The notes under the pieces are model-generated. The model worked only from the letters and a program-made list of their open reading frames with translations, did not search any database and was not told the DNA's origin. A program made the translations under genes and the position numbers. A DNA stretch of 64,000 nucleotides from Segetibacter koreensis DSM 18137 (lineage in GTDB: Bacteria; Bacteroidota; Bacteroidia; Chitinophagales; Chitinophagaceae), in the NCBI RefSeq assembly GCF_000374045.1, contig NZ_KB893326.1, positions 151,594 to 215,593 of the forward strand, given 5' to 3'. Positions 259 through 10,704 of the stretch are shown here, piece by piece. How positions within the stretch are numbered: position 1 is the stretch's first letter; each line of letters begins with the position of its first letter.

Positions 259-603
259 TTATAACAATGACTCTCCGCCAATAATTTCCACGTTTATGTT
301 CTTTAAGTTTTCATCCACTAATATCTGGCACGCAAGGCGAAGTTCAGATGATTGTATGCCCATTTTATAAAGTGTCCTTTCTTCATTTCTCTCCAGGGTA
401 TTCATTCCGGCAGGCAGCCCTTCAACTTTTACAACACATGTGCCACATCGGCCCATGCCTTTACATTCACCAAAATCTTCAATATAGATTTTATCGTACA
501 GTAAAACCATGAGGTTTCTATATTCGCCTTCGTAGGTTTGCAATTCATACTTTTCGCCTTGATAGTAGGCGGTGAAGTGAATGTACGTCTTATTTATTGC
601 CAT
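259..603 (-). CDS. 2Fe-2S ferredoxin
   Basis: A 114-residue protein with the plant-type 2Fe-2S pattern: C47, C53 and C56 in a GECKGMGRCGTC loop, and C92 in the RLACQI segment near the C-terminus. Such ferredoxins carry single electrons in the cytosol. No reductase is fused to it and the partner is not visible. It is the last gene of the minus-strand run that starts with the Rrf2 regulator, beginning 6 bp after the haemerythrin gene. That position suggests it supplies electrons to, or helps repair, the iron proteins encoded upstream. The family call is firm; the role is inferred. Confidence 0.88.
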   Translation of the reverse strand: MAINKTYIHFTAYYQGEKYELQTYEGEYRNLMVLLYDKIYIEDFGECKGMGRCGTCVVKVEGLPAGMNTLERNEERTLYKMGIQSSELRLACQILVDENLKNINVEIIGGESLL

Positions 604-609
604 CTGGAG

Positions 610-1098
610 TTAGTCCTTTTTCTTCAGCCAAAATTCATCTGCAAAGTCATCTTTTAACGTCGGATCATTTTGAGCTGCTATTTGTTTTCCAATGGTTTCC
701 AATTGCTCATTTGTCAATACCTTTTCCAGGTGAGGAAATAATTCTCTTTCTTCATACCGAACATGATTATCTACTGTACCGGCGAGAATTGATAATTGAT
801 CTGCCAGGTTATTTCCAGCAGAAGGCAAAGTGTTTATCTGTTGAGTAATTTGTGCATGTTCATCAAGGGCTTTTTGCACCGCGGCATCTTTCACCGGGGC
901 AAATAAAATAGTTTCTTCTTCCTTAAAATGCGGTTGAAGGTGGTGTTGCCAGAAGTATTGTACATACTTTTCTATTCTGCCGGGTTCTATTTCGAACTTT
1001 AATCCGTTTCTTATTTTCCAGCAAAACAACAAAGTGAAGTGGTGGTCTTTTGAGAGCTTAACAATATGCTCGTTTCGTTTGATAGGTTTTTTTTCCAT
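610..1098 (-). CDS. Haemerythrin-domain (HHE) protein
   Basis: A 162-residue helical protein with haemerythrin-like metal ligands: a DHH pair at residues 18-20, HFKEEE around 57-62, H81, HVRYEE around 112-117 and H123 in the FPHLEK segment. HHE proteins bind a diiron centre and are used for O2 or NO sensing, O2 storage or repair of damaged Fe-S centres. It lacks the N-terminal ScdA domain of full-length RIC/YtfE proteins. It sits between the DUF488 gene and the ferredoxin gene in the oxidase/globin operon, which favours a role in NO or oxygen stress. The domain is clear; the exact role is inferred. Confidence 0.85.
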   Translation of the reverse strand: MEKKPIKRNEHIVKLSKDHHFTLLFCWKIRNGLKFEIEPGRIEKYVQYFWQHHLQPHFKEEETILFAPVKDAAVQKALDEHAQITQQINTLPSAGNNLADQLSILAGTVDNHVRYEERELFPHLEKVLTNEQLETIGKQIAAQNDPTLKDDFADEFWLKKKD

Positions 1099-1172
1099 TT
1101 TAAATTATAGTGAATAGTGAATACCTATTGAAAGGAATTGAAAGTTTTTTACAAATCTGGTGTATAGTTTCC

Positions 1173-1544
1173 TTAATCAGTTTCCTTTGTATTCTTATTC
1201 TTTGCCAGCAAATCTTTTAAAACGACTGCCTGGTTATGTTGTTCGTCTTTAGCCCCGTAAATTAGTGTTACCGTTTTATGTTTATCTATAAACGATGACA
1301 GTTCTTTTAATGCATTCGATTGTTGTAGTTCCGTTTCGTACCTGTTTTTAAATTCTTCCCATTTTGCGGGATCATGGTTAAACCATTTTCGCAGTTCATT
1401 TGAAGGAGCAATTACTTTCATCCAAAGATCAAAATGAGCATTTTCTTTTTTTATACCGCGGGGCCATAACCTGTCAACCAGCACACGAAATCCATCAGAT
1501 TTTTCTGCAAAATCATAAACTCGTTTTATTTTTATTGCAGCCAT
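1173..1544 (-). CDS. DUF488 family protein
   Basis: A 123-residue protein with the conserved DUF488 features VLVDRLWPRGIKKE near the N-terminus, LRKWFNHDPAKWEEFKNRY in the middle and a VTLIYGAKDEQHNQAVVL segment near the C-terminus. The length is typical of the family, whose biochemical function is not established. DUF488 genes are often found near haem- and oxygen-related genes. Here it lies in the minus-strand run between a small membrane protein gene (27 bp upstream) and the haemerythrin gene (74 bp downstream). It is probably cytosolic, since no signal or membrane segment is seen. Confidence 0.85.
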   Translation of the reverse strand: MAAIKIKRVYDFAEKSDGFRVLVDRLWPRGIKKENAHFDLWMKVIAPSNELRKWFNHDPAKWEEFKNRYETELQQSNALKELSSFIDKHKTVTLIYGAKDEQHNQAVVLKDLLAKNKNTKETD

Positions 1545-1571
1545 ATTTCAAGTATAAAAAGCGACGTTTAG

Positions 1572-2012
1572 TTAACCTGTAACAAACCCTTTAAACAACT
1601 TAAAACCAAGCACAAAGAGCGTGCAAAGTTTAATAACCTCAGCACCCACAAAGTACCAATGTAATGAAGAAGGCATTAAAGTCTTTCCGCTAATAACTAT
1701 ATTAGCCCTGGCATCTAAAGCAGGTAACAGCCAAAATGTTTGCACAATCAGAAACCAAACAGCAATTCCAAATAACACGATGTTGCTGGAGACTACTTGC
1801 TGCTTATTAGAAATGTAACTAATGAAAATTATAGCTGCAAACAACCATTCAATTTTATTAAGAGCGCCGAAGACAAGTTTTCCAATACTTAAGCCTATAG
1901 GTACAGTAACGCCGGGCGCACGAAACTTTAGCCAAGATTCCATAAAGCTAATGGCAATGAGGCACCCTGACCATACTAACACTGACATAAGCATAACATA
2001 TTGCTTCCACAT
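1572..2012 (-). CDS. Small membrane protein with four predicted TM helices
   Basis: A 146-residue hydrophobic protein with helices at about residues 5-24, 55-66, 75-95 and 118-140. I do not recognise a named family with certainty; it resembles DUF4149-like or CopD-like small membrane proteins only in general layout. Its ATG overlaps the TAA of the upstream truncated haemoglobin gene (TAATG on the minus strand), which implies translational coupling. The context of oxidase, globin and haemerythrin suggests a role in the same stress or respiratory response, but nothing in the sequence proves this. Confidence 0.7.
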   Translation of the reverse strand: MWKQYVMLMSVLVWSGCLIAISFMESWLKFRAPGVTVPIGLSIGKLVFGALNKIEWLFAAIIFISYISNKQQVVSSNIVLFGIAVWFLIVQTFWLLPALDARANIVISGKTLMPSSLHWYFVGAEVIKLCTLFVLGFKLFKGFVTG

Positions 2013-2410
2013 TATACGAGGGTTTTGAATTTTTGATTTCTAAAATGTTCGATTTTCATTTCAAACATTTGTGCCATTTTATTTGCACGCCACAATGCTT
2101 CATTTGCTTTTTCGCCACAAAACAGTTCATCGATTGTCTTAGTAAATAGCGTTAGCCATTGTTCAAAATGTTGATGATCAACAGGAAGGTTTGCGTGAGG
2201 CGGAAACGGGGCGCCAAAATAAGTATGTTCTTCAAGCAACACTGTTTGCCAAAAAGTGTACATTTTTTCTAAATGTTGCGGCCATCGATCTTGGATTCGG
2301 GCATCGAAGACCGGCCCTAAAAAACTATCACTCCGCACTTTATCATAAAAAGTATCAACCAATAATTTTATATCATTCATCCCTTCTATATCCGTTCTCC
2401 CGTTCATCAT
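2012..2410 (-). CDS. Group III truncated haemoglobin
   Basis: About 132 residues with the group III truncated globin pattern: a VDTFYDKVRSDSFLGPVF start, a WPQHLEKMYTFWQTVLL core, a Y-G-P-F-P-H-L-P stretch and HFEQWLTLF with the likely proximal histidine. These globins bind O2 or NO. I place the start at 2410 instead of an upstream ATG at 2476, because ATG at 2410-2408 overlaps the TGA of the preceding gene (ATGA), and the extra 22 residues look like readthrough of the neighbour. It is coupled at both ends to its neighbours in the operon. Confidence 0.85.
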   Translation of the reverse strand: MMNGRTDIEGMNDIKLLVDTFYDKVRSDSFLGPVFDARIQDRWPQHLEKMYTFWQTVLLEEHTYFGAPFPPHANLPVDHQHFEQWLTLFTKTIDELFCGEKANEALWRANKMAQMFEMKIEHFRNQKFKTLV

Positions 2411-2811
2411 TTTTGAAACAATTGGGTGATTAAATAATAAATGGCCCAGCCTCCAAACAGTATGTGGGCTATCCAAACCCAGCCTGGAATACTGCGCGGA
2501 GTTTCACTTCCTTCAATTAAAAAAACTTTTTGGTCGCCTTTGCCATAAGCGCTGATCATTATAGGAATCACTCCATCTACCACTTCATTTTCTTTGAGGC
2601 CTTCTATTGAAATATCAGGTCCATTACGTACAGTAAAGGGAATTTTACGTATGCCTTCCGTGCCACTTGGGTCTTTGCTTACTATCCGTAAAAAATGTTC
2701 GCCGTCAACCAACTTACGCGTATCAAGTTCAAAATTAATCGGCGACTTAAATGAGCCGACGGGTTGTTGCTCGTCATCTATAAAAATTATAAGAGAGCTT
2801 TTGTCTTCCAT
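2407..2811 (-). CDS. Tail-anchored protein with Ig-like extracytoplasmic or cytosolic domain
   Basis: A 134-residue protein with no signal peptide, a beta-rich N-terminal 100 residues (GSFKSPINFELDT, LVDGEHFLRIVSKD, IPFTVRNGPDI) resembling an Ig-like fold, and one C-terminal membrane helix at about 109-130. I do not recognise a named family. It lies between a small CPAC membrane protein and the truncated haemoglobin, overlapping the latter by 4 bp. Because it follows the oxidase genes so closely it may be an accessory or assembly subunit of that enzyme, but this is inference from position only. Confidence 0.65.
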   Translation of the reverse strand: MEDKSSLIIFIDDEQQPVGSFKSPINFELDTRKLVDGEHFLRIVSKDPSGTEGIRKIPFTVRNGPDISIEGLKENEVVDGVIPIMISAYGKGDQKVFLIEGSETPRSIPGWVWIAHILFGGWAIYYLITQLFQK

Positions 2812-2817
2812 TTTAAA

Positions 2818-3072
2818 TCAATTTAGTACGGTTCTTTTAATATGGTTCAGGTTTTTTTCTTCAGGTTTTATCAGCCATTTTATAGTGTAGTAAAGTGTTA
2901 TCAATACAATAAAAATAGTTGCCCACACAATTACATAATCCCAACTGCTATCGGGGCCGGTGCCATGCGTGATACCCTGTAATATTTTTGGCTGCCTCTT
3001 TTCACATGCCGGGCATGCAATAGCTGCTATCCTTACAATTACCAGGCAGATGATTAATAGCATTTTTTTCAT
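2818..3072 (-). CDS. Small CPAC-motif membrane protein, oxidase-associated
   Basis: About 84 residues when started at the ATG at 3072, which gives a clean MKKMLLIICLVIV signal; an upstream ATG at 3108 would add 12 basic residues before it. After the signal comes CPACEKRQP, then a predicted membrane helix around residues 43-63 and a short basic tail. The cysteine pair directly after the signal could bind copper or haem or form a disulphide, as in small oxidase assembly factors. It follows the cytochrome c gene by 50 bp. I do not recognise the family; the link to the oxidase is positional. Confidence 0.65.
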   Translation of the reverse strand: MKKMLLIICLVIVRIAAIACPACEKRQPKILQGITHGTGPDSSWDYVIVWATIFIVLITLYYTIKWLIKPEEKNLNHIKRTVLN

Positions 3073-3122
3073 TGTAAGCTTTTTAAATTTTCTATTATAT
3101 TTTATCAATTTAAAAGGTTGAC

Positions 3123-4148
3123 CTATTTAGTTGCAGGTGTATCTTTTGACTTCAATTTCACTAGGTCCATTAATTTTTTTATATCTGCAGACGTTACTTT
3201 TTTTGCATTGTTTCCCCAGCTTGTTTTTTCATGGCTCATGATTGCTGCGATTTCCTCAGGAGTTAAATTATTATTGGTTCCAATTGCAGGCATTGGGGGA
3301 AACCCTTCCTGCACACGTCCGCTATAGCCATTCATAATTATATCTACCATTAGCTCAGGGTTTTCATCCAGTACTACTTTGCTTCCTTTTAAAGGGGGAA
3401 AAGCACCTTTTAATCCTTCACCGTTTTCCTGGTGGCAGCTTTGACAATTGGCTGCATACAATGCGGTTCCATCAAGCTGCTGTTCCTGGGGAGCGCCAGA
3501 CTCGTTTTTCTTTTCCCTTTTATATAAAAATTCGAGGTTCGGAGTGCCATCGGGCAATTTAATTTGTTTGAGGGTTTGCAGGTAGGCGACTAATTGCAAT
3601 GCTTCTTTCGTTGCTACCACTTTGCCTTCCTGCCCTTGTAAATATTCTTTGGGCACATTTACCACAACATCTCCTTTGGCAGGTACTTTTTTTACTTCAA
3701 ACATCCAGGGGTAAGCAGGCATAATGGATTGTTTTACCACAATTCTCGGGTTAAACATGTGCACGAGGTGCCAGTCAATGCTCGGCTGGCGTGTTCCAAT
3801 ACTTGCAAGGTCCGGTCCTGTACGCTCTGTACCCATTACGGTTGCTGTGTTACGCCACAAATCGGTACGGTGCAAAGAGGCATAATCAGCAGCAATGCTG
3901 GGACGTTCTCCCCACACTTTATCCATGTCTACATTTCTTACCTGTTGGGTATGGCAGGCAACGCAACCATTCGCTACATAAATTGCCTTACCCTGCAAGG
4001 CATCGCCGCTCAATGCCTCTGCCTGGGGTAGTGGTGCGTTATTTTTCTGATTATACAGGGCGGGCAGAATTGCTACAAGTATGGTTAAAAAAAGAAATAA
4101 GCCGAGAGCTGTTAAAAAGAGTTTTTTATGGTCGTTGAAATACTCCAT
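3123..4148 (-). CDS. CcoO-like monohaem cytochrome c subunit fused to a second cytochrome c domain
   Basis: A 341-residue membrane-anchored dihaem protein. One N-terminal helix (about 10-30) is followed by a CcoO/FixO-like domain with CVACH (C62, C65, H66), a GTERTGPDLASIG segment and SIMPAYPW with a likely methionine ligand at M143. From about residue 225 there is a separate class I cytochrome c domain with CQSCH (C235, C238, H239) and a GFPPMPAIG segment with a likely axial Met. In ordinary cbb3 oxidases CcoO and the dihaem CcoP are separate; here one fused protein may do both jobs. It lies 72 bp after the catalytic subunit gene and should pass electrons to it from periplasmic donors or quinol:cytochrome c reductase. 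Confidence 0.85.
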   Translation of the reverse strand: MEYFNDHKKLFLTALGLFLFLTILVAILPALYNQKNNAPLPQAEALSGDALQGKAIYVANGCVACHTQQVRNVDMDKVWGERPSIAADYASLHRTDLWRNTATVMGTERTGPDLASIGTRQPSIDWHLVHMFNPRIVVKQSIMPAYPWMFEVKKVPAKGDVVVNVPKEYLQGQEGKVVATKEALQLVAYLQTLKQIKLPDGTPNLEFLYKREKKNESGAPQEQQLDGTALYAANCQSCHQENGEGLKGAFPPLKGSKVVLDENPELMVDIIMNGYSGRVQEGFPPMPAIGTNNNLTPEEIAAIMSHEKTSWGNNAKKVTSADIKKLMDLVKLKSKDTPATK

Positions 4149-4220
4149 TTTATAATTTTTTTTGCTGGTTCAATCCGTAATAATTCTTCTTTTAGTTTTG
4201 ATAGAACAAAACCGTTTATA

Positions 4221-6383
4221 TTACTGTACATCTACTAATTCATGGCCTTCTAAAGTCAGTTTTTCTAAAGCTTCTTCGTTAATATTGACAACCTTTCTCG
4301 GATTGATCATTTTATACATATTGAAGGCAAAAACCAGGTGAGACGCCCACATTAATGTTCCGCCAATAGCTCGCCAAAGCCAGTAAGGAGCCATGAAGGA
4401 AACGCTGTCAATAAATGGTTTTCCATCCAGCCACATCATGCCTCTTAAAGTTCCCCCGATCATTAATGGAATAGTATAAAACAATAGCCCGATAAACGCC
4501 ATCCAAAAATGAATACCTACTGTTACCTGCGGAGGCTCCTGCCGTGTAAGCCTTGGAATAATGGCATAAATGCCACCCCAAAGAAAAAATGCGATAATGC
4601 CATACATGGTTAAATGAGAGTGCGCTACTGTAAAGTCGGTAAAGTGCCAGACAAGGTTAGTGAAACGAAATGCTTCTGCTGTACCCTGAAGGGATCCCGA
4701 AAAATAAAATATGGTTCCAATAATAAAGAAGGGGAGGGTATAACTACCTGAAACTTTATTCCATGAACCCTTGAAGGTCATTAAAAAATTGGTAGTACCG
4801 GAAACGACGGGTATCACCATTCCCACGCTTCCAACAATGGCAACTGTCTGCAAAGACCAGGGAATAGCACTGAAAACAAAGTGATGGGTACCTATAAGTG
4901 TATAAAAAAATATCTGCGACCAGAAAGCAAGTATGCCCAGGCTGTAGGAATAGATAGGTTTATTTAGCTGCTGGGGTAAATAATAATAAACAAGCCCCAG
5001 GGTAAACAACATAAACCACATACCTACCCCCTGGTGCATATAGTAACCCTGAGTAATTGTTTCACCTAAACCGTCTTGCCAAAATGGAAGATAAGCTACT
5101 ACTGAAATCGTGATAGCAAACATAACGGCGGCGATAATGTACCAGTTTGATACATATATTTCTTTGGTTTTACGAGTGGCAACTGTTTTAAGAAAGTTGG
5201 CTAATGTAAGAGCAAGGCCGATACCAAACAAAAGCTGAATAGGCCATACATATTCCCGGTATTCGCCGCCGCCGTTATTAATACCCGCCATTAGCAAAAT
5301 ACTGCCCAGCAGTACTGTAGCATTGATTAAATACAAAGTGTACCATCCCCATTTTAAACTATATATCTGTACGTTGCCAACGCGTGGTACTACATAATAT
5401 CCTAATCCTAACATAGCTAATGAAGACCAACCCCAGAAGACAGAATTAGTATGAACTGGTCTAAGCCTTCCAAAGCTGAGCCAGCTTAGATGATCTGCAT
5501 CAGGCGCTACAAACTTAATACCTGCATATTCTCCGATTGAAGTGCCAAACACCAGCCAAACGGTAGCAGTAATTAAAAACCAGATAATAAGTTTTGAAAG
5601 TTGGGGATCTACATCAGGCCGTTTAAGCGCTTTTCTCTTTTCAGCGATAAAACGAATATTCGCATGTTCATTTACATTAGTAATTATACCTTTATCATCA
5701 TTGGGTGGAAGTGATCCCGAAAGTTCATTTTGTCTAAGCTTGTAATCAAGCACTGCTTTGCGTTTTCTTAAAGCGTCCGATATTTCTTCTTCGGGTAAAG
5801 TTTTTAAATATTCGGTCAACCGCTCTACTTCTGCAAGATTCTGATTAAAGCGGTAGCGTTTTACAATATTTGACACTTTTAATGTCATAAGTATAATACC
5901 GGTAAGAATGGGAGTAAGAATTAAAATAAGCGTTATAACAATGCCGCCTTCGCTAAATAAGGAAAAAGGCTTTTCCGCTGTTGTTTGAGCAAATACATTT
6001 GTACTTAATAATGTTGCGCCAAGAAGCATAAAAAGCAGGAGAGGGAGATTTGTACCTGTCGCCTTCAGCTTCCTTGTTTGTTTGTATTTTAAAAAAGTAT
6101 CAATCTGTTTACTGTCAAATGCATTAAAATATTCCTCTACTTTTCCTGTATATTCACCCTTCATTTTTTTTCTCACCAGTTTCATCATCTCGTGTGTTTC
6201 GACCGAAAGAAATATTGCGGCCGCCAGTACTATCAATACCAGCAAACAAAGCACTATTATTTCCCCTATTCCGGGGGAGGCAGACGGCGGTACCGTTCTT
6301 TCAGATTGTGCTAATAAAGGAAAAGGGAATAATAAAGATACAATAGCAAACCACCGCGGAATGCCATACTTACTTGTGTTCAT
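4221..6383 (-). CDS. Divergent C-family (cbb3-like) haem-copper oxidase, catalytic subunit
   Basis: A 720-residue membrane protein. The last ~460 residues are a CcoN/FixN-type core. Spacing matches the known cbb3 active site exactly: H450 (CuB), Y494 (the tyrosine cross-linked to that histidine in cbb3 enzymes, 44 residues on), H500/H501 (CuB, 50 on), and H588 and H590 in AHSHL (haem b3 and haem b). H311 is the likely second haem b ligand. This argues for O2 reduction more than for NO reduction. Oddities: the motifs YYMHQGVG, GTHHF and AHSHL differ from the usual WYGHNAV, GPHHL and GHVHAG; Q566 stands where cbb3 enzymes have a conserved glutamate (TFEGP); and residues 1-250 are an extra N-terminal region with two similar units, each a signal-like helix ending in AQ followed by a second helix. 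No ccoP, ccoG, ccoS or ccoQ gene is nearby. Confidence 0.85.
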   Translation of the reverse strand: MNTSKYGIPRWFAIVSLLFPFPLLAQSERTVPPSASPGIGEIIVLCLLVLIVLAAAIFLSVETHEMMKLVRKKMKGEYTGKVEEYFNAFDSKQIDTFLKYKQTRKLKATGTNLPLLLFMLLGATLLSTNVFAQTTAEKPFSLFSEGGIVITLILILTPILTGIILMTLKVSNIVKRYRFNQNLAEVERLTEYLKTLPEEEISDALRKRKAVLDYKLRQNELSGSLPPNDDKGIITNVNEHANIRFIAEKRKALKRPDVDPQLSKLIIWFLITATVWLVFGTSIGEYAGIKFVAPDADHLSWLSFGRLRPVHTNSVFWGWSSLAMLGLGYYVVPRVGNVQIYSLKWGWYTLYLINATVLLGSILLMAGINNGGGEYREYVWPIQLLFGIGLALTLANFLKTVATRKTKEIYVSNWYIIAAVMFAITISVVAYLPFWQDGLGETITQGYYMHQGVGMWFMLFTLGLVYYYLPQQLNKPIYSYSLGILAFWSQIFFYTLIGTHHFVFSAIPWSLQTVAIVGSVGMVIPVVSGTTNFLMTFKGSWNKVSGSYTLPFFIIGTIFYFSGSLQGTAEAFRFTNLVWHFTDFTVAHSHLTMYGIIAFFLWGGIYAIIPRLTRQEPPQVTVGIHFWMAFIGLLFYTIPLMIGGTLRGMMWLDGKPFIDSVSFMAPYWLWRAIGGTLMWASHLVFAFNMYKMINPRKVVNINEEALEKLTLEGHELVDVQ

Positions 6384-6414
6384 AATAAAATAATTATTAT
6401 TTTTTCTATAAAAA

Positions 6415-6849
6415 CTATCGCTGCTTCAGGTAGGCCAGTTTGTTTTCCAGTTGTTCCTGCAACTCATCTAGCTTTACACTTTGCAGCATGTCATAAATAT
6501 CCTTTCGTACTTTTTTAAATTCATTATGAATCGGGCACGGCTTTATTTCTGAGCAATAATCGAGTCCTAAGCCGCAACCGGAAAAAATTTTATCTCCATC
6601 AATAGCTTTTACTATATCAGCTAAAGAACATTGTAGAGAATTTTTGTTAAGGTAAAATCCTCCGGTGGGACCTTTTAAAGATTGTAACAATTCCTTTTTT
6701 ATTAATTCCTGCAAAATTTTAGCAATGAAATGTTCCGGAGCATCAATTTCTTTAGCAATTTCCTTAATGCCTACTTTGCTTCCATCCTTTGTTCTTCTGG
6801 CTATAAAAATCATCGCCCTTATGGCGTACTCACATGTTTTCGAAAACAT
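6415..6849 (-). CDS. Rrf2-family Fe-S transcriptional regulator
   Basis: A 144-residue regulator with an N-terminal winged helix (MFSKTCEYAIRAMIFIA, then GIKEIAKEIDAPEHFIAKIL and GPTGGFYLN) and three cysteines, C92, C99 and C105, in the Rrf2 cluster-binding loop (C-X6-C-X5-C). This places it with the IscR/NsrR/RsrR group, which sense Fe-S status, NO or redox state through a cluster. It is the first gene of the minus-strand run and ends 31 bp before the oxidase gene, so it probably regulates itself and the operon. The near-palindrome at 6886-6913 is a likely target. Which signal it senses cannot be read from the sequence; NO is favoured by the globin and haemerythrin neighbours. Confidence 0.9.
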   Translation of the reverse strand: MFSKTCEYAIRAMIFIARRTKDGSKVGIKEIAKEIDAPEHFIAKILQELIKKELLQSLKGPTGGFYLNKNSLQCSLADIVKAIDGDKIFSGCGLGLDYCSEIKPCPIHNEFKKVRKDIYDMLQSVKLDELQEQLENKLAYLKQR

Positions 6850-6866
6850 TCATCATATTTATGGTG

Positions 6867-6874
6867 CAAATATA
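6867..6874 (-). promoter_or_regulatory. Candidate -7 box of the Rrf2/oxidase operon promoter
   Basis: On the minus strand this reads TATATTTG, matching the Bacteroidota TAnnTTTG element, with a TTTG at about 6899-6896 spaced some 21 bp upstream as the -33 part. It lies 17 bp before the Rrf2 start codon. Confidence 0.55.
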
Positions 6875-6885
6875 AGGTGTTTCAA

Positions 6886-6913
6886 TAATAGAGGACAAAT
6901 TTATCTTCTATTA
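6886..6913. promoter_or_regulatory. Near-palindromic operator candidate for the Rrf2 regulator
   Basis: A 28-bp inverted repeat centred between 6899 and 6900. Twelve of 14 base pairs match; the half-site is TAATAGAGGACAAA read inward. It overlaps the -33 region of the operon promoter, the position expected for a repressor. Its AAGAT..AAATTT..ATCTT character resembles NsrR-type sites in general form. Seen directly; binding is inferred. Confidence 0.6.
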
Positions 6914-7095: not shown

Positions 7096-10000
7096 TTACC
7101 TCAATAATGTTATGTCACCTTTTTTCTCGTATTTCGAATTGTCTGAAAATTGAACAGCCAGCGAATAATGGTAAACTTCTTTTGGTTGAATACTCCCTTT
7201 AAAAGTTCCATCCCAGCCTTGTGTTTTGTCATTTGTTTCAAAGACCATTTGTCCCCAACGGTTATAAATTCGCCAGGTCATTTTACTTATTGCAAACCCA
7301 CGTACAAACACTTTGTCATTTATTCCATCTCCGTTTGGAGTAAAAGCGTTGGGAACATCAATCAGAGGAGTTATTCGTGCGACAATATGCTGGCAGGTGG
7401 TATCGGGGCAGCCGAAGTTATTTAAAGCAACCAGGCAGGTATTAAAAGTTCCGGTTTCGTTGTAAATGTGGGAAACAGGTTCCTGTGAGCGGGCGTTCAA
7501 TGAATCGCCATCGCCAAATTTCCAAACATAATGGGTTGCACCGATAGAATTATTTGAAAAATTAACGGCGGTGTTTTCTTGCGGAGGATTTGGGGTAAAC
7601 GTGTACGAAGCCGTTGGTTTATCACTGACTACTATTGTCATACCGGTTGTATCCATCATGTTGCATGTTCCGGAATCAACTGCTCTCAAAGTAATTGAGT
7701 AGGTGCCGGGAACAGTATATACATGGGTGGGACTAGCTTCAGTAGAAGTTTCTCCGTCTCCAAAGGCCCAAAAAAATTGCTGTCCTCCGGCAGATATGTT
7801 ATCAAATACGGCATTGTAGGGGGCGCAACCACCAGGAGGAGTCTCAAATTGCGCTTTCACGTTCGTAGCTATTCTTAAGGGAATTTCAACAGAATCCGGT
7901 GCATTACAAAAAGACGTGTCTGTCAATACCAGTTTTACTTTATAGACGCCCGGTCCCGGAAATGCATGTGTAACAAGGTTAAGGCCAGCGGTAACAGGGG
8001 GAGTGCTATCACCAAAATACCACGTAAAAGATGTATTTGTAAAGTTTCTGCCTGGCGTGTTTATAAGTGAAGTATTTGTAAACTGGTAATTAGCAGATTC
8101 GCACGGAAGTAACTTTTGTGATGCAAAGCCCAGGTTTACTTTGTCGCTTCTCACCTTTATGTGCGTATAGGCAGAATCTGCAATATTACATTTTGAGCTA
8201 TCAATTGAGATGAGTTTAACCTGGTAAGTGCCTGCGGCGTTGAAAGTATGACTTATAGTTGGGTCTGCAGTTGCAACATCTGCGGAGCCATCTCCAAAAT
8301 TCCAGACATATTTTTTAGCTGAGGCAAGGGTGTCAGTAAAATCGACCGTTAAAGGTACACAGCCGGAAGTGTCGCTTATGACTCCATTGATAGAAGCCCT
8401 CACACTGCTTGCCACACCTGCGAGATTAAAAGCTATTTTGACGGCTGCCAGGTTACACCGGGTAGAACCATTTGAGGGAGACCAAACGCCGGGAGTTGTA
8501 GGAAAAGGGACATCACGGCCACAATTGGCACACAAGGCCTGGTAAATGACCCCGTTTCGGTCAAAGCGGCTTGTTCCTCCATCTACGTGTTCGCCAAGTC
8601 CACCCACCTGACCAAAAAAACTGCCGTATAACTGACCTGCTGCGTTTCTTTCTAATACAAAAAAGTAAAAATCGCTATTATCAGTTTTTGATTGAATTGC
8701 GTCTGGGGTTACAGACAAACCTGATGTGCCTGCATTTGGATAATTCATATCAGAATTTGTCGTTCCACCCCAGCCTGAAACGTAAACATTTTCACACCTG
8801 TCGACCAGGAAGGCAATGGGTGAGATGTTCGGCGTTTTTGCACCGCTGCCAAAGACCGTTGAATATTCATAGGCAGACAAGTCCGGCTTCAGCTTCGCGA
8901 TAAACTGCTTGCCTTTGCTTTGGGAAAAAGCTGCATTTACTATCGGCCAAGTATCACTTGTTGTTGTGCCCATAATATAAGGGAAACCAAATTTGTCGAA
9001 TTGTATGCCATATAACATATCAATATCTGCAGTACCTATGAATGTTGTTTTTAATAAAGCACCTCCGTCAGGCGATACAATAGAGACAAATCCATCTGTT
9101 TCACCTCCCTGGTATGCAGGGTGTAAAGCATTTGTTTTATTGCCGGGAAAATCGGCACCATCAGTATTACCACCTACATAAATATTATTATCAGTAGGGT
9201 TTATGGCCAATACAAAAGCGGCATCATTTCCACTTCCGCCGATCAGGGTGCTGAAAAGAATATTACTAAGATTAGAAGTCAATTTTATAAGAACTCCATC
9301 CTGTTTTCCACCAGAAGTTTTTTGAAAAGCGCCCCCGGTAGTTGGAAAAAGCGCAGATTGTGTATTAGAGGCAAGTATTATATTTCCATCATTATCAAGT
9401 ATTACTTCACCTCTTGCATCATCACCATAATTTCTGCGAATGCTTGTAACGGGTGATTGAGGGTATTTCGGCCTAATGTTCACTCCATCTGACTCTTTTC
9501 CACCTATTTTTCTGGAACCTACAAGGGCCGAACCTGCTGCATTTAATTTGGTAACAATTATATCATAACCTCCGCCTCCATTGTCTGTAACTGTTGTAGG
9601 AAAGTTGGGCGAATTGGAGCGTCCGGCTAATACTAACTCGCCCTGACCATCAACTACAAGGCTATGGGGTTGTTCATTTCCACTTCCGCCAATATAAGTA
9701 GCATAAGTACGGTCCGAACCATTTGGGCTGAATTTTATAATGCCAATATCGTAAGGACCAATTCCTTCATCATCGATTCCTCCATTGAAAGAAGTGCTGA
9801 ACGCACCCGGACTTGTTGGGAAACCCTGATCAAATACAATTCCTCCGGCATAAAAACTCCCATCAGGACCATAAGTAGCAGTGTATCCCCAATTGTCTGC
9901 AGTGCTGCCCGTAAAAGTTGAAAAGACAAGTGTAGGATCTATAATTAATTCGGAAGATTTTGAATAATTGTTTACAGCAAATTGAACTGTTTTTCCGGCT

Positions 10001-10704
10001 ACTTTAAACCGGCAGCCTACTTCTTTTTTAACACCAGCTACTACCTGGTAGGCGTATGGCGCAAGTTCGCGTGTTTCACCTACAGATGTTTTGATAACCA
10101 ACTGTTCGTTTTTTACCTGCAAACCATCCACACCATCATACTTCATTGCCAGATGAGAAAGGTCTGCTCCTGCATGAACTACAATATCATACTTTAGTTT
10201 TCCATCATTTGTATAATACCTTATATCGATGCCCGGGTAAATATTCTGGTAAGTAATTGCCTGGTATATACGACAATTGCCTTTCCATTTAGAAGGATCA
10301 TTACCAATTATATAATTATTATAGGTATTTAAAGGCTTATCTCCGACAATTGCGGGAGTTTGTGCATTTATAAATTCTACATTATAGGCGTGTGAATGTA
10401 CAGTTATTCCATCTTCATCCTTTGGTGGAATAACAGATTTAGCAGCAATATTGTGAGCAGAAACATGAGAAAAACCATGAAAAAAATCAGACATTTTTTC
10501 AAGATCTTCAGCTTTACTTTGTAAAACACGAAAACCTTTTTCCGTAAGGAAAAAAGCCCCATTATTCATAACGCCCTTAAATTTTACGTTTTCATTCCAT
10601 TGGCCTTTATTTTCAATAAACTCAATATTTGCATATTGGCAATATGCTGATTTTATGCTAAAAAAGAAAGCAATTGCGATAGTAATTAAAATATTTGGTC
10701 TCAA
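7096..10704 (-). CDS. Large secreted beta-propeller/PKD protein with T9SS type B sorting domain
   Basis: A 1202-residue protein. A signal peptide (about 1-22, ending in AYCQ) leads to a conserved N-terminal domain with FIENKGQWNENVKF and DIRYYTNDGKLKYDIVVHAG. Residues ~280-760 hold SBBP-like beta-propeller repeats (GDDARGEVILDNDGNIILAS, IGGSGNDAAFVLAI). Four PKD domains follow, marked by WNFGDG, WYFGDS, WAFGDG and WKFGDG near residues 800, 895, 980 and 1063. From about 1118 there is a CHU_C/gliding-type C-terminal domain (PNAFTPNGDGIND, YNRWGQMVFE) that directs export by the type IX secretion system and surface attachment. Function is likely adhesion or surface binding; the ligand is unknown. 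It is transcribed alone. Confidence 0.9.
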   Translation of the reverse strand: MRPNILITIAIAFFFSIKSAYCQYANIEFIENKGQWNENVKFKGVMNNGAFFLTEKGFRVLQSKAEDLEKMSDFFHGFSHVSAHNIAAKSVIPPKDEDGITVHSHAYNVEFINAQTPAIVGDKPLNTYNNYIIGNDPSKWKGNCRIYQAITYQNIYPGIDIRYYTNDGKLKYDIVVHAGADLSHLAMKYDGVDGLQVKNEQLVIKTSVGETRELAPYAYQVVAGVKKEVGCRFKVAGKTVQFAVNNYSKSSELIIDPTLVFSTFTGSTADNWGYTATYGPDGSFYAGGIVFDQGFPTSPGAFSTSFNGGIDDEGIGPYDIGIIKFSPNGSDRTYATYIGGSGNEQPHSLVVDGQGELVLAGRSNSPNFPTTVTDNGGGGYDIIVTKLNAAGSALVGSRKIGGKESDGVNIRPKYPQSPVTSIRRNYGDDARGEVILDNDGNIILASNTQSALFPTTGGAFQKTSGGKQDGVLIKLTSNLSNILFSTLIGGSGNDAAFVLAINPTDNNIYVGGNTDGADFPGNKTNALHPAYQGGETDGFVSIVSPDGGALLKTTFIGTADIDMLYGIQFDKFGFPYIMGTTTSDTWPIVNAAFSQSKGKQFIAKLKPDLSAYEYSTVFGSGAKTPNISPIAFLVDRCENVYVSGWGGTTNSDMNYPNAGTSGLSVTPDAIQSKTDNSDFYFFVLERNAAGQLYGSFFGQVGGLGEHVDGGTSRFDRNGVIYQALCANCGRDVPFPTTPGVWSPSNGSTRCNLAAVKIAFNLAGVASSVRASINGVISDTSGCVPLTVDFTDTLASAKKYVWNFGDGSADVATADPTISHTFNAAGTYQVKLISIDSSKCNIADSAYTHIKVRSDKVNLGFASQKLLPCESANYQFTNTSLINTPGRNFTNTSFTWYFGDSTPPVTAGLNLVTHAFPGPGVYKVKLVLTDTSFCNAPDSVEIPLRIATNVKAQFETPPGGCAPYNAVFDNISAGGQQFFWAFGDGETSTEASPTHVYTVPGTYSITLRAVDSGTCNMMDTTGMTIVVSDKPTASYTFTPNPPQENTAVNFSNNSIGATHYVWKFGDGDSLNARSQEPVSHIYNETGTFNTCLVALNNFGCPDTTCQHIVARITPLIDVPNAFTPNGDGINDKVFVRGFAISKMTWRIYNRWGQMVFETNDKTQGWDGTFKGSIQPKEVYHYSLAVQFSDNSKYEKKGDITLLR

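Follow-up and report, generated by a model that had tools for sequence, protein, structure and literature searches.

Nitric oxide (NO) reductases of the cNOR and qNOR types belong to the haem-copper superfamily, in which they stand out by the absence of the active-site tyrosine and by a glutamate, placed four residues beyond the first histidine, that ligates FeB. The cbb3 oxidases share the COX1 family with the enzyme described here, and that of P. stutzeri (3mk7) is reported to reduce both NO and nitrite to N2O (PMC8780969). Regulons of the Rrf2-type repressor NsrR comprise hmp, dnrN (ytfE), nnrS and sometimes nor, and the NsrR operator is given as gATGyAT-(N5)-ATrCATc, both according to PMC1274295.

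Ten minus-strand open reading frames between positions 259 and 6849 of the window (the whole 64,000-nucleotide stretch of DNA that was analysed) resemble each of these systems in part, and we consider it fairly probable that they form a respiratory module that is repressed by Rrf2 and serves under nitrosative conditions. Among open-licence papers, no title treating this operon was found. Its features are given below, with counts among 80 named Bacteroidota loci.

6889..6910, minus strand: operator palindrome TAGAAGATAAATTTGTCCTCTA, upstream of Rrf2 and covering the -33 region of the promoter
6867..6874, minus strand: -7-like element TATATTTG (TAnnTTTG), 14 nt after the operator
6415..6849, minus strand: regulator of the Rrf2 family with CX6CX5C, probably an autorepressor that senses through an Fe-S cluster
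4221..6383, minus strand: CcoN-like catalytic subunit from a C-family clade of its own; carries a ~250-aa membrane extension at the N-terminus
3123..4148, minus strand: CcoO, in which a further cytochrome c domain is fused to the FixO domain; two CxxCH motifs
2818..3072, minus strand: p7, small membrane protein with a CPxCE motif, without known family; 79/80 loci
2407..2811, minus strand: p6, Ig-like domain and one C-terminal transmembrane (TM) helix resembling FixP_N; 78/80 loci
2012..2410, minus strand: truncated haemoglobin (Bac_globin, 1.4e-7); 56/80 loci
1572..2012, minus strand: p4, four-helix membrane protein, family not known; 17/80 loci
1173..1544, minus strand: DUF488 protein (Pfam); 12/80 loci
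610..1098, minus strand: haemerythrin (HHE) protein without ScdA_N (Pfam); 27/80 loci
259..603, minus strand: 2Fe-2S ferredoxin (Fer2, Pfam); 31/80 loci

Operon layout and conserved core

The ten genes are confirmed and, judged by the sequence, form a predicted operon. All lie where the first-pass annotation had placed them, and the short gaps and start-stop overlaps that it described agree with the coordinates: 31 bp separate Rrf2 from CcoN, 72 CcoN from CcoO, 50 CcoO from p7, 6 p7 from p6, 27 p4 from DUF488, 74 DUF488 from HHE and 6 HHE from Fer2, while p6 overlaps the haemoglobin gene in ATGA at 2410-2407 and the latter overlaps p4 in TAATG at 2012. The p7 start codon is the ATG at 3072. 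Seven of the ten products exceed the cut-off of a Pfam family (Rrf2, COX1, FixO with cytochrome c, Bac_globin, DUF488, Hemerythrin and Fer2); for p7, p6 and p4 no Pfam family did so. In the window's genome, genes for RIC, DUF2249, an NnrS-like protein, an FeS_assembly_P protein and a second Rrf2 continue on the same strand past the left end of the window, with a gap of ~0.36-0.39 kb between the operon and these adjoining NO-related genes, and thus the gene set may extend beyond position 259.

The 80 named loci were compared with 11 clade loci from a phylum sample and with 21 loci of other C-family oxidases. CcoN, dihaem CcoO, p7 and p6 were found in 78-80 of the 80 named loci and Rrf2 in 64 (3 of 11 in the phylum sample); the other genes vary, and all ten occur together in four loci (L032, L040, L056 and L100). 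The synteny expected across Bacteroidota is therefore kept for the core and largely for the regulator, whereas the view of ten genes as a fixed unit has to be given up in favor of a fixed part, CcoN-CcoO-p7-p6. Genes of five NO-related families (globin, haemerythrin, RIC, DUF2249 and NnrS-like) were present in 65/80 named and 9/11 phylum-sample loci as opposed to 0/21 loci of other C-family oxidases, a control with queries from the window's genome at E 1e-5 and half coverage, so that distant homologues may have escaped. None of the five families was detected in 15 of the 80 loci (9 of 59 among loci of at least 19 kb). These counts bear out the earlier proposal that a special C-family oxidase is joined to O2- and NO-binding proteins; the module may also, as proposed there, be induced by stress and scavenge these molecules.

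Regulator, operator and promoter

The regulator has the Rrf2 fold (PF02082, 8.5e-29) together with the three cysteines remarked on in the first-pass annotation, spaced CX6CX5C and kept in a 66-row alignment, which is the combination required of the NsrR type. The NCBIfam NsrR model scored 38.9 bits against a cut-off of 182, and the IscR and RirA profiles scored above NsrR, all of them below their own cut-offs. As in NsrR regulons, a three-cysteine Rrf2 adjoins NO-handling genes, here including RIC and the NnrS-like gene; the difference is that this regulator leads an oxidase operon with no hmp among its ten genes. It is probably an Fe-S sensor and autorepressor.

The conserved palindrome, TARARGAY-N6-RTCYTYTA, is set apart from the NsrR consensus of PMC1274295. 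Allowing at most one mismatch, the operator pattern matched once in the window against 0.06 expected. With at most two mismatches, 49 of 64 upstream regions contain it, compared with 0.5 for shuffled sequence. The site lies 56-69 nt before Rrf2 in 45 of these 49, and TAnnTTTG follows at 11-18 nt in 41 of the 49 (3.5% in shuffles). Five Pontibacter-type loci (L034, L035, L038, L048 and L055) carry the exact operator before CcoN, with Rrf2 downstream; in 15/80 loci, one of which (L092) has hardly any upstream sequence, no operator within two mismatches was found before Rrf2 or CcoN.

The element TATATTTG in the window we take to be of the Bacteroidota -7 type, with the consensus TAnnTTTG. A sigma-70 scan returned 28 hits against 27.2 in shuffles, which is chance level, and the single promoter proposed for the operon consequently draws nothing from that scan but gains from the conserved operator followed by TATATTTG upstream of Rrf2. 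The window's own genome holds two exact operator sites, at this operon and inside a coding frame, and at one mismatch a reversed control pattern gave 16 matches per strand versus 10 for the operator pattern. A wider operator regulon in this genome was rejected on these results.

The catalytic subunit and its partners

CcoN forms its own clade within the C family (100/100 support). Across 395 genomes it has, besides the window's own, 12 relatives at 56-69% identity, with the next best at 35-37%, and the other C-family matches listed share 30-37%. Six histidines and the cross-link tyrosine (positions 60, 207, 251, 257, 258, 345 and 347) are kept in 93/93 clade sequences, a set that probably counts at least one genome (L003/L076) twice; with the site intact, the complex likely retains O2 chemistry. 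Residues that we presume to be of K-channel type are kept as well (Y223 in 93, Y237 in 92, N289 in 93 and T293 in 92 of 93; P. stutzeri numbering). The surroundings of the site are altered, with W203G and S240G in 93, L247Q in 92, N208Q in 89 and T215M in 86 of 93. A glycine occupies the +4 position, where NOR carries the FeB glutamate, and this residue, the tyrosine in 93/93 and the distant position in the tree reject a canonical cNOR or qNOR identity for CcoN. E323Q was discarded as a mark of the clade because Q also occurs in 14 of 17 other rows. The N-terminal extension aligned to the CcoP N-terminus with an hhalign probability of 1.4% and weak hmmsearch scores.

With cbb3 the complex shares the COX1 family, the histidines and tyrosine, and a FixO-type CcoO (PF02433, 2.1e-27), yet this CcoO bears a second c domain, p7 is new, and the clade differs by S240G, mostly T215M, and NO-related neighbors. 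Neither FixG nor a P-type ATPase is among the ten window genes, whereas the ordinary cbb3 cluster of the same genome (on C73) encodes both of these along with CcoP and a CcoNO fusion. Pfam named none of the cbb3 assembly proteins (ccoG, ccoH, ccoI, ccoS) among the ten window proteins, in agreement with the earlier statement that ccoG, ccoS and ccoH are missing. The accompanying statement that ccoP is missing is only half right: p6 has no haem c, and thus is not a dihaem CcoP, but it resembles an altered CcoP.

The TM helix of p6, next to its Ig-like domain, keeps the E-x5-P-x-W of FixP_N/CcoP, and in 7/11 phylum-sample loci p6 is fused to a cytochrome c (one haem c). FixP_N matched at the TM helix of all three fused p6 proteins tested, at E values under the cut-off strength (0.006, 0.018 and 2.1); Pfam did not report it in the p6 of the window or of L164. 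In hhalign, p6 and FixP_N aligned in register (p 0.021 and 0.002; control 0.57) at low probabilities (13% and 2%). The profile evidence for the helix is thus faint, and p6 is probably a degenerate CcoP derivative, in the window without cytochrome c. It occurs in 12/13 clade genomes versus 2/382 others, one of the two being G134, whose 735-aa protein aligns with the Ig-like part only and was rejected as a true p6. AlphaFold gave a poor model for p6 (mean pLDDT 67), and Foldseek returned no match for it at E 0.001.

Nitrogen oxides and competing readings

NosZ is encoded in 30/41 operon genomes, and in 11/13 clade genomes versus 117/382 others (raw counts that ignore common descent); within the window's own family the figures are 3/3 versus 6/11. 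Neither qNOR nor cNOR was found in 13 of the 30 NosZ-positive operon genomes, absences that concern these two types in draft genomes, with bNOR, eNOR, sNOR, gNOR and nNOR outside the search. NirK exceeds its cut-off in three of the 13 (G408, G412 and G425). Hcp was not found in the 13, nor was a convincing flavodiiron protein; weak ODP matches occur in six, three of them counted over the cut-off, and the frames shown measure 216-326 aa. In Agriterribacter humi (G412) only two COX1-family proteins were found (E up to 0.01), namely the clade CcoN and an A-family type, assigned by its HPEV motif and an adjoining subunit II with C-x3-C; nosZ lies ~6 kb from the operon.

These observations may be accommodated as follows. 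Rrf2, as an Fe-S sensor of NO, would occupy the palindrome in the promoter of its own operon, across the -33 region, until NO damaged its cluster and the operon was released. CcoN, CcoO, p7 and p6 would then assemble into a haem-copper terminal reductase that receives electrons from a periplasmic cytochrome c and converts NO to N2O, continues to reduce O2 in the presence of NO, or both. Globin, haemerythrin, ferredoxin and the adjoining RIC, DUF2249 and NnrS-like proteins would contribute NO or O2 binding and repair of iron centres.

What the terminal reductase would do in the cell can be read in more than one way. An O2 reductase that tolerates NO and low O2 while NO blocks aa3 and ordinary cbb3, with globin and other proteins removing NO, is a serious possibility, if somewhat short of probable. 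Respiration is maintained under NO by bd oxidases elsewhere, and the invariant histidines and tyrosine, the K-channel-type residues kept in 92-93 of 93, and the E-x5-P-x-W of p6 all suit an oxidase; the loss of S240 in 93/93 and of T215 in 86/93 does not, and plain O2 respiration has no need of a link to NosZ and RIC. NO reductase activity is plausible, and in some bacteria without a known NO reductase the complex may be an NO-removing enzyme that has gone unnoticed. That it is primarily a physiological NO reductase, with an oxidase-type site retained, closing the gap in Bacteroidota that carry nirK and nosZ and lack a known nor, is a more tentative proposal. It is favored by the 13 genomes in which neither qNOR nor cNOR was found, NirK in three of them, the lack of Hcp and of a convincing flavodiiron protein in the searches, the gene content of A. 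humi and the changed surroundings of the site, but it must contend with the tyrosine and glycine noted above, with an extra ordinary C-family protein in each of G408 and G425, and with the limits of the NOR search. Moreover, 21/41 operon genomes already own a known NOR (qNOR in 17, cNOR in 7, three with both), so the complex is no simple NOR replacement. The broader generalization, that a C-family lineage with degenerate CcoP, intact His-Tyr site, Rrf2 repressor and own operator serves as physiological NO reductase in many Bacteroidota and explains some nir- and nosZ-bearing genomes without nor, is put forward with similar caution.

It is unlikely that the regulator responds to O2 or to the Fe-S or iron status in place of NO, the operon then being a low-O2 or iron-stress respiratory set; the ranking of IscR and RirA over NsrR and the unlike operator would fit, while the RIC, NnrS-like and DUF2249 partners and the NosZ association indicate nitrogen oxides. 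Least credible, and very improbable, is an ordinary cbb3 variant amid loose stress genes of no common role: accessory genes do differ between loci, but the operator is conserved, p6 co-occurs with CcoN, and the 0/21 control rejects a plain cbb3 cluster with chance neighbors.

In the samples examined the clade is a concrete candidate, usually near NO genes and in NosZ genomes, and in A. humi its CcoN is the sole C-family haem-copper protein found alongside NirK and NosZ. Should the clade turn over NO, estimates of N2O that are based on nor genes overlook one step, and an oxidase-type tyrosine site would be at work in cellular NO reduction; as an NO-tolerant oxidase, on the other hand, it would be a haem-copper counterpart of the bd strategy. 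On either reading the operator and the subunit p6 are well defined, and cultured hosts exist, among them Chitinophaga pinensis, a Pedobacter and A. humi.

Among the accessory proteins, p4 has eight invariant residues in 16 sequences (W14, S22, E25, K29, N52, E55, R102 and H118) and a confident four-helix model, for which the PDB gave no match at E 0.001. The best Pfam match of the DUF488 protein is the N3 subclade, labelled inactive by Pfam. The HHE protein was rejected as RIC/YtfE, having the haemerythrin domain alone without ScdA_N; the true RIC lies downstream, outside the window. A relative of this HHE protein adjoins cNOR genes (norCB) in L138, followed by Rrf2-like and NnrS-like genes, and also norB in L141, as read from the sequence.

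The operon, its CcoN clade and p6

The open reading frames of the window bear out the ten minus-strand genes that the first-pass annotation had read at 259–6849, and both claimed start–stop overlaps are present in the sequence. A Pfam scan of the ten proteins named a family over the cut-off for seven and none for the following three:

2818–3072, minus strand: p7, a small membrane protein with a CPxCE motif and one transmembrane segment following a signal-like segment
2407–2811, minus strand: p6, an Ig-like part plus one transmembrane segment
1572–2012, minus strand: p4, a membrane protein of four helices

Strong CcoN matches in 395 Bacteroidota genomes (the phylum sample) numbered 13, the window's own and 12 at 56–69% identity, below which identity falls to 35–37%. 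A maximum-likelihood tree (21 sequences from the clade, 15 from elsewhere in the C family and 4 cNOR NorB) gave the clade 100/100 support and split the other C-family members into two groups; an ordinary cbb3 cluster (CcoNO fusion, CcoP with FixP_N, FixG, P-type ATPase) also lies on another contig of the window's genome. An alignment of 93 clade sequences, drawn from the window, 80 named loci and 12 loci of the phylum sample (with one genome probably present twice), retains all six His and the cross-link Tyr in every row, and the changes lie around these residues: W203G, L259F and S240G in 93/93, L247Q in 92/93, N208Q and G349T in 89/93 each, and T215M in 86/93, T215 being kept in seven phylum-sample loci (L007–L011, L013, L014). 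Positions 215 and 240 have roles in the K-channel. Position 327 is E in 92/93 clade rows; of the 17 other rows, which include one out of frame, 12 carry Q. An N-terminal extension of ∼250 aa with several hydrophobic segments (5634–6383) is shorter in Pontibacter-type loci (frames of ∼620–640 aa) and missing from several members in the phylum sample (∼450–480 aa).

The small protein p6, which is strikingly well conserved (57–93% identical to the window's copy in 37 others), is probably a remnant of CcoP. In 7 of the 11 phylum-sample loci its frame extends into a cytochrome c domain; in the three fused proteins scanned, the terminal cytochrome c was over the Pfam cut-off, and FixP_N at the transmembrane segment (E 0.006, 0.018 and 2.1) and, in two of the three, Big_7 or Big_13 at the N-terminus were under theirs. 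In an hhalign alignment the p6 motif E-T-P-x-x-I/V-P-x-W falls in register with E-L/F-D-N-x-L/M-P-x-W-W of genuine CcoP (n = 7, phylum sample), at p 0.002 and 0.021 (probabilities 13% and 2%) against 0.57 for an unrelated control; the FixP_N and hhalign scores are weak singly and stronger together. The p6 profile matches 14 of the 395 genomes, namely 12 of the 13 clade genomes and two others, G296 and G134, the last through a 735-aa protein that matches in its Ig-like part alone.

In the tree, CcoN of the window falls with Ilyomonas, Pontibacter and Adhaeribacter and apart from L003 and L004, which belong to its own family, and the window's p6 is 85–86% identical to that of Pontibacter/Telluribacter (L034, L049) and mostly 57–73% to other loci; lateral transfer is possible. 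Upstream of the operon (7096–10704, minus strand), a 1202-aa protein, in which repeated PKD-like segments can be seen by eye, is a putative secreted surface protein.

Gene linkage and the operator

One genome per species was scanned, and the best 80 of 330 places encoding relatives were retained as loci of up to 10 kb each side, 59 measuring 19 kb or more. The proposal that the ten families are kept together holds in these best 80 of 330 for a core of CcoO and p7 (79/80 each) and p6 (78/80), and not for the complete set (4/80); Rrf2 occurs in 64, globin in 56, Fer2 in 31, HHE in 27, RIC in 26, p4 in 17, DUF488 in 12, DUF2249 in 8, MIP18-type in 7 and NnrS-like in 6. One or more of the five families globin, HHE, RIC, DUF2249 and NnrS-like occur in 65/80 (50/59 among loci of at least 19 kb) and in 9/11 phylum-sample clade loci, versus 0/21 loci of other C-family oxidases under identical queries and thresholds. 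These queries came from the window's genome and distant homologues may escape them; the 9/11 phylum-sample loci, several from other families, argue against this as the sole cause of the 0/21. All 11 phylum-sample clade loci encode CcoO with two CxxCH, 10 have p6, 7 have p7 and 3 have Rrf2. At L173 (G296:C6), an Rrf2-like gene, p6, globin, RIC, HHE and Fer2, as identified from sequence, lie side by side, ∼650 bp separating Rrf2 from p6, and CcoN, CcoO and p7 were not seen there.

On the single promoter proposed earlier, a sigma-70 promoter scan was uninformative, and a 22-bp palindrome at 6889–6910 was informative (1 seen, 0.06 expected in shuffles). The operator motif TARARGAY-N6-RTCYTYTA occurs with at most 2 mismatches in 49 of 64 Rrf2 upstream sequences (63 loci and the window; shuffle mean 0.5, maximum 2), 56–69 nt from the start codon, as placed in this analysis, in 45 of the 49. 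In Pontibacter-type loci, where the oxidase genes precede Rrf2, the site stands before CcoN instead, exact in L034, L035, L038, L048 and L055, with 1 mismatch in L039 and with 3 in L049, L054 and L071. In 15 of the best 80 of 330 loci no operator was seen within 2 mismatches before Rrf2 or CcoN; the sole other exact match in the window's genome sits within a gene. TAnnTTTG follows 11–18 nt past the operator in 41/49 (3.5% in shuffles; in the window TATATTTG, 14 nt past), so the site overlies the −33 region, where a repressor would be expected to bind; regulation may be by repression, with NO as the putative signal. The operator is unlike the NsrR box of PMC1274295, whereas the partners resemble those of the NsrR regulon, being of dnrN/ytfE and nnrS type.

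Nitrogen-oxide genes and the reaction of the complex

The operon is, as had been surmised, no textbook system, being neither a textbook cbb3 nor a known NOR. The favoured reading is a module that would deal with NO while electrons keep flowing. The clade, the gene linkage, the operator, the residues and the p6 fusions are results of computation, whereas the NO signal, repression, subunit assembly and the reaction are inferred; NO reductase and NO-tolerant oxidase appear about equally likely as the main job. The P. stutzeri cbb3 is described as reducing NO and nitrite to N2O (PMC8780969), so C-family chemistry permits the former; the retained cross-link Tyr speaks for O2 chemistry having been kept.

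Among 41 operon genomes (40 chosen by us and the window's own), matches over the cut-off were found for NosZ in 30, qNOR (PF22085) in 17, cNOR NorB in 7 and NirK in 11, with qNOR and/or cNOR in 21. Of the 30 NosZ-positive genomes, 13, the window's included, have neither enzyme; the other 17 have qNOR or cNOR, which argues against the clade being a simple replacement for NOR. NirK is present in three of the 13, Ginsengibacter hankyongi (L058), Agriterribacter humi (L070) and Albibacterium bauzanense (L091), and in a fourth, Ilyomonas limi (L032), a NirK-like protein scores 171 bits, which is below the cut-off. A search for Hcp gave nothing in these 13 genomes. Six of them have weak ODP-domain matches (20.6–26.7 bits, or as much as 30.3 when neighbours are included), three of which counted as passing the cut-off; the frames measure 216–326 aa, which is short for flavodiiron proteins. 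Just two COX1 proteins occur in A. humi (E up to 0.01), the clade CcoN and an A-family-type CtaD that, as read from sequence, adjoins a CuA-type subunit II, and its nosZ cluster adjoins the operon; the other two of these three NirK genomes, G408 and G425, have an ordinary C-family protein as well as the clade CcoN. In the phylum sample NosZ (E up to 1e-100) occurs in 11/13 clade genomes versus 117/382 others (Fisher p 1e-4, uncorrected for descent), and in the window's own family in 3/3 versus 6/11.

Genes beside the window and NnrS-like proteins

A second gene set lies just left of the window, downstream of the operon and on its strand, at L113:6383–11494 (G000:C13, the window's own genome):

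operon strand: RIC (DUF2249-ScdA_N-haemerythrin)
operon strand: DUF1858/DUF2249 protein
L113:7903–9186, operon strand: NnrS-like protein, 427 aa, in which COX1 matches weakly (6.1e-5), below the cut-off
operon strand: MIP18-type (FeS_assembly_P) protein
operon strand: second three-Cys Rrf2
operon strand: 103-aa protein without a Pfam match
operon strand: cupin-like protein

The label NnrS-like rests on motifs and context, with no Pfam NnrS match for this protein. Membrane proteins of this kind with HAH(S/M) motifs, at L113:7903–9186, L140:5181–6482 and L070:4521–5774 (the last two without any Pfam match), adjoin nosZ or the operon and may be unrecognised haem or copper proteins. At L138:4662–9647 and L141:4723–9718, norC-norB-HHE-Rrf2-NnrS-like-RIC-like clusters adjoin nos-type genes, the Pfam scan here covering norB and HHE of L138. 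The HHE proteins of these two clusters carry LLLCWKI near their start, versus LLFCWKI in the window's HHE.
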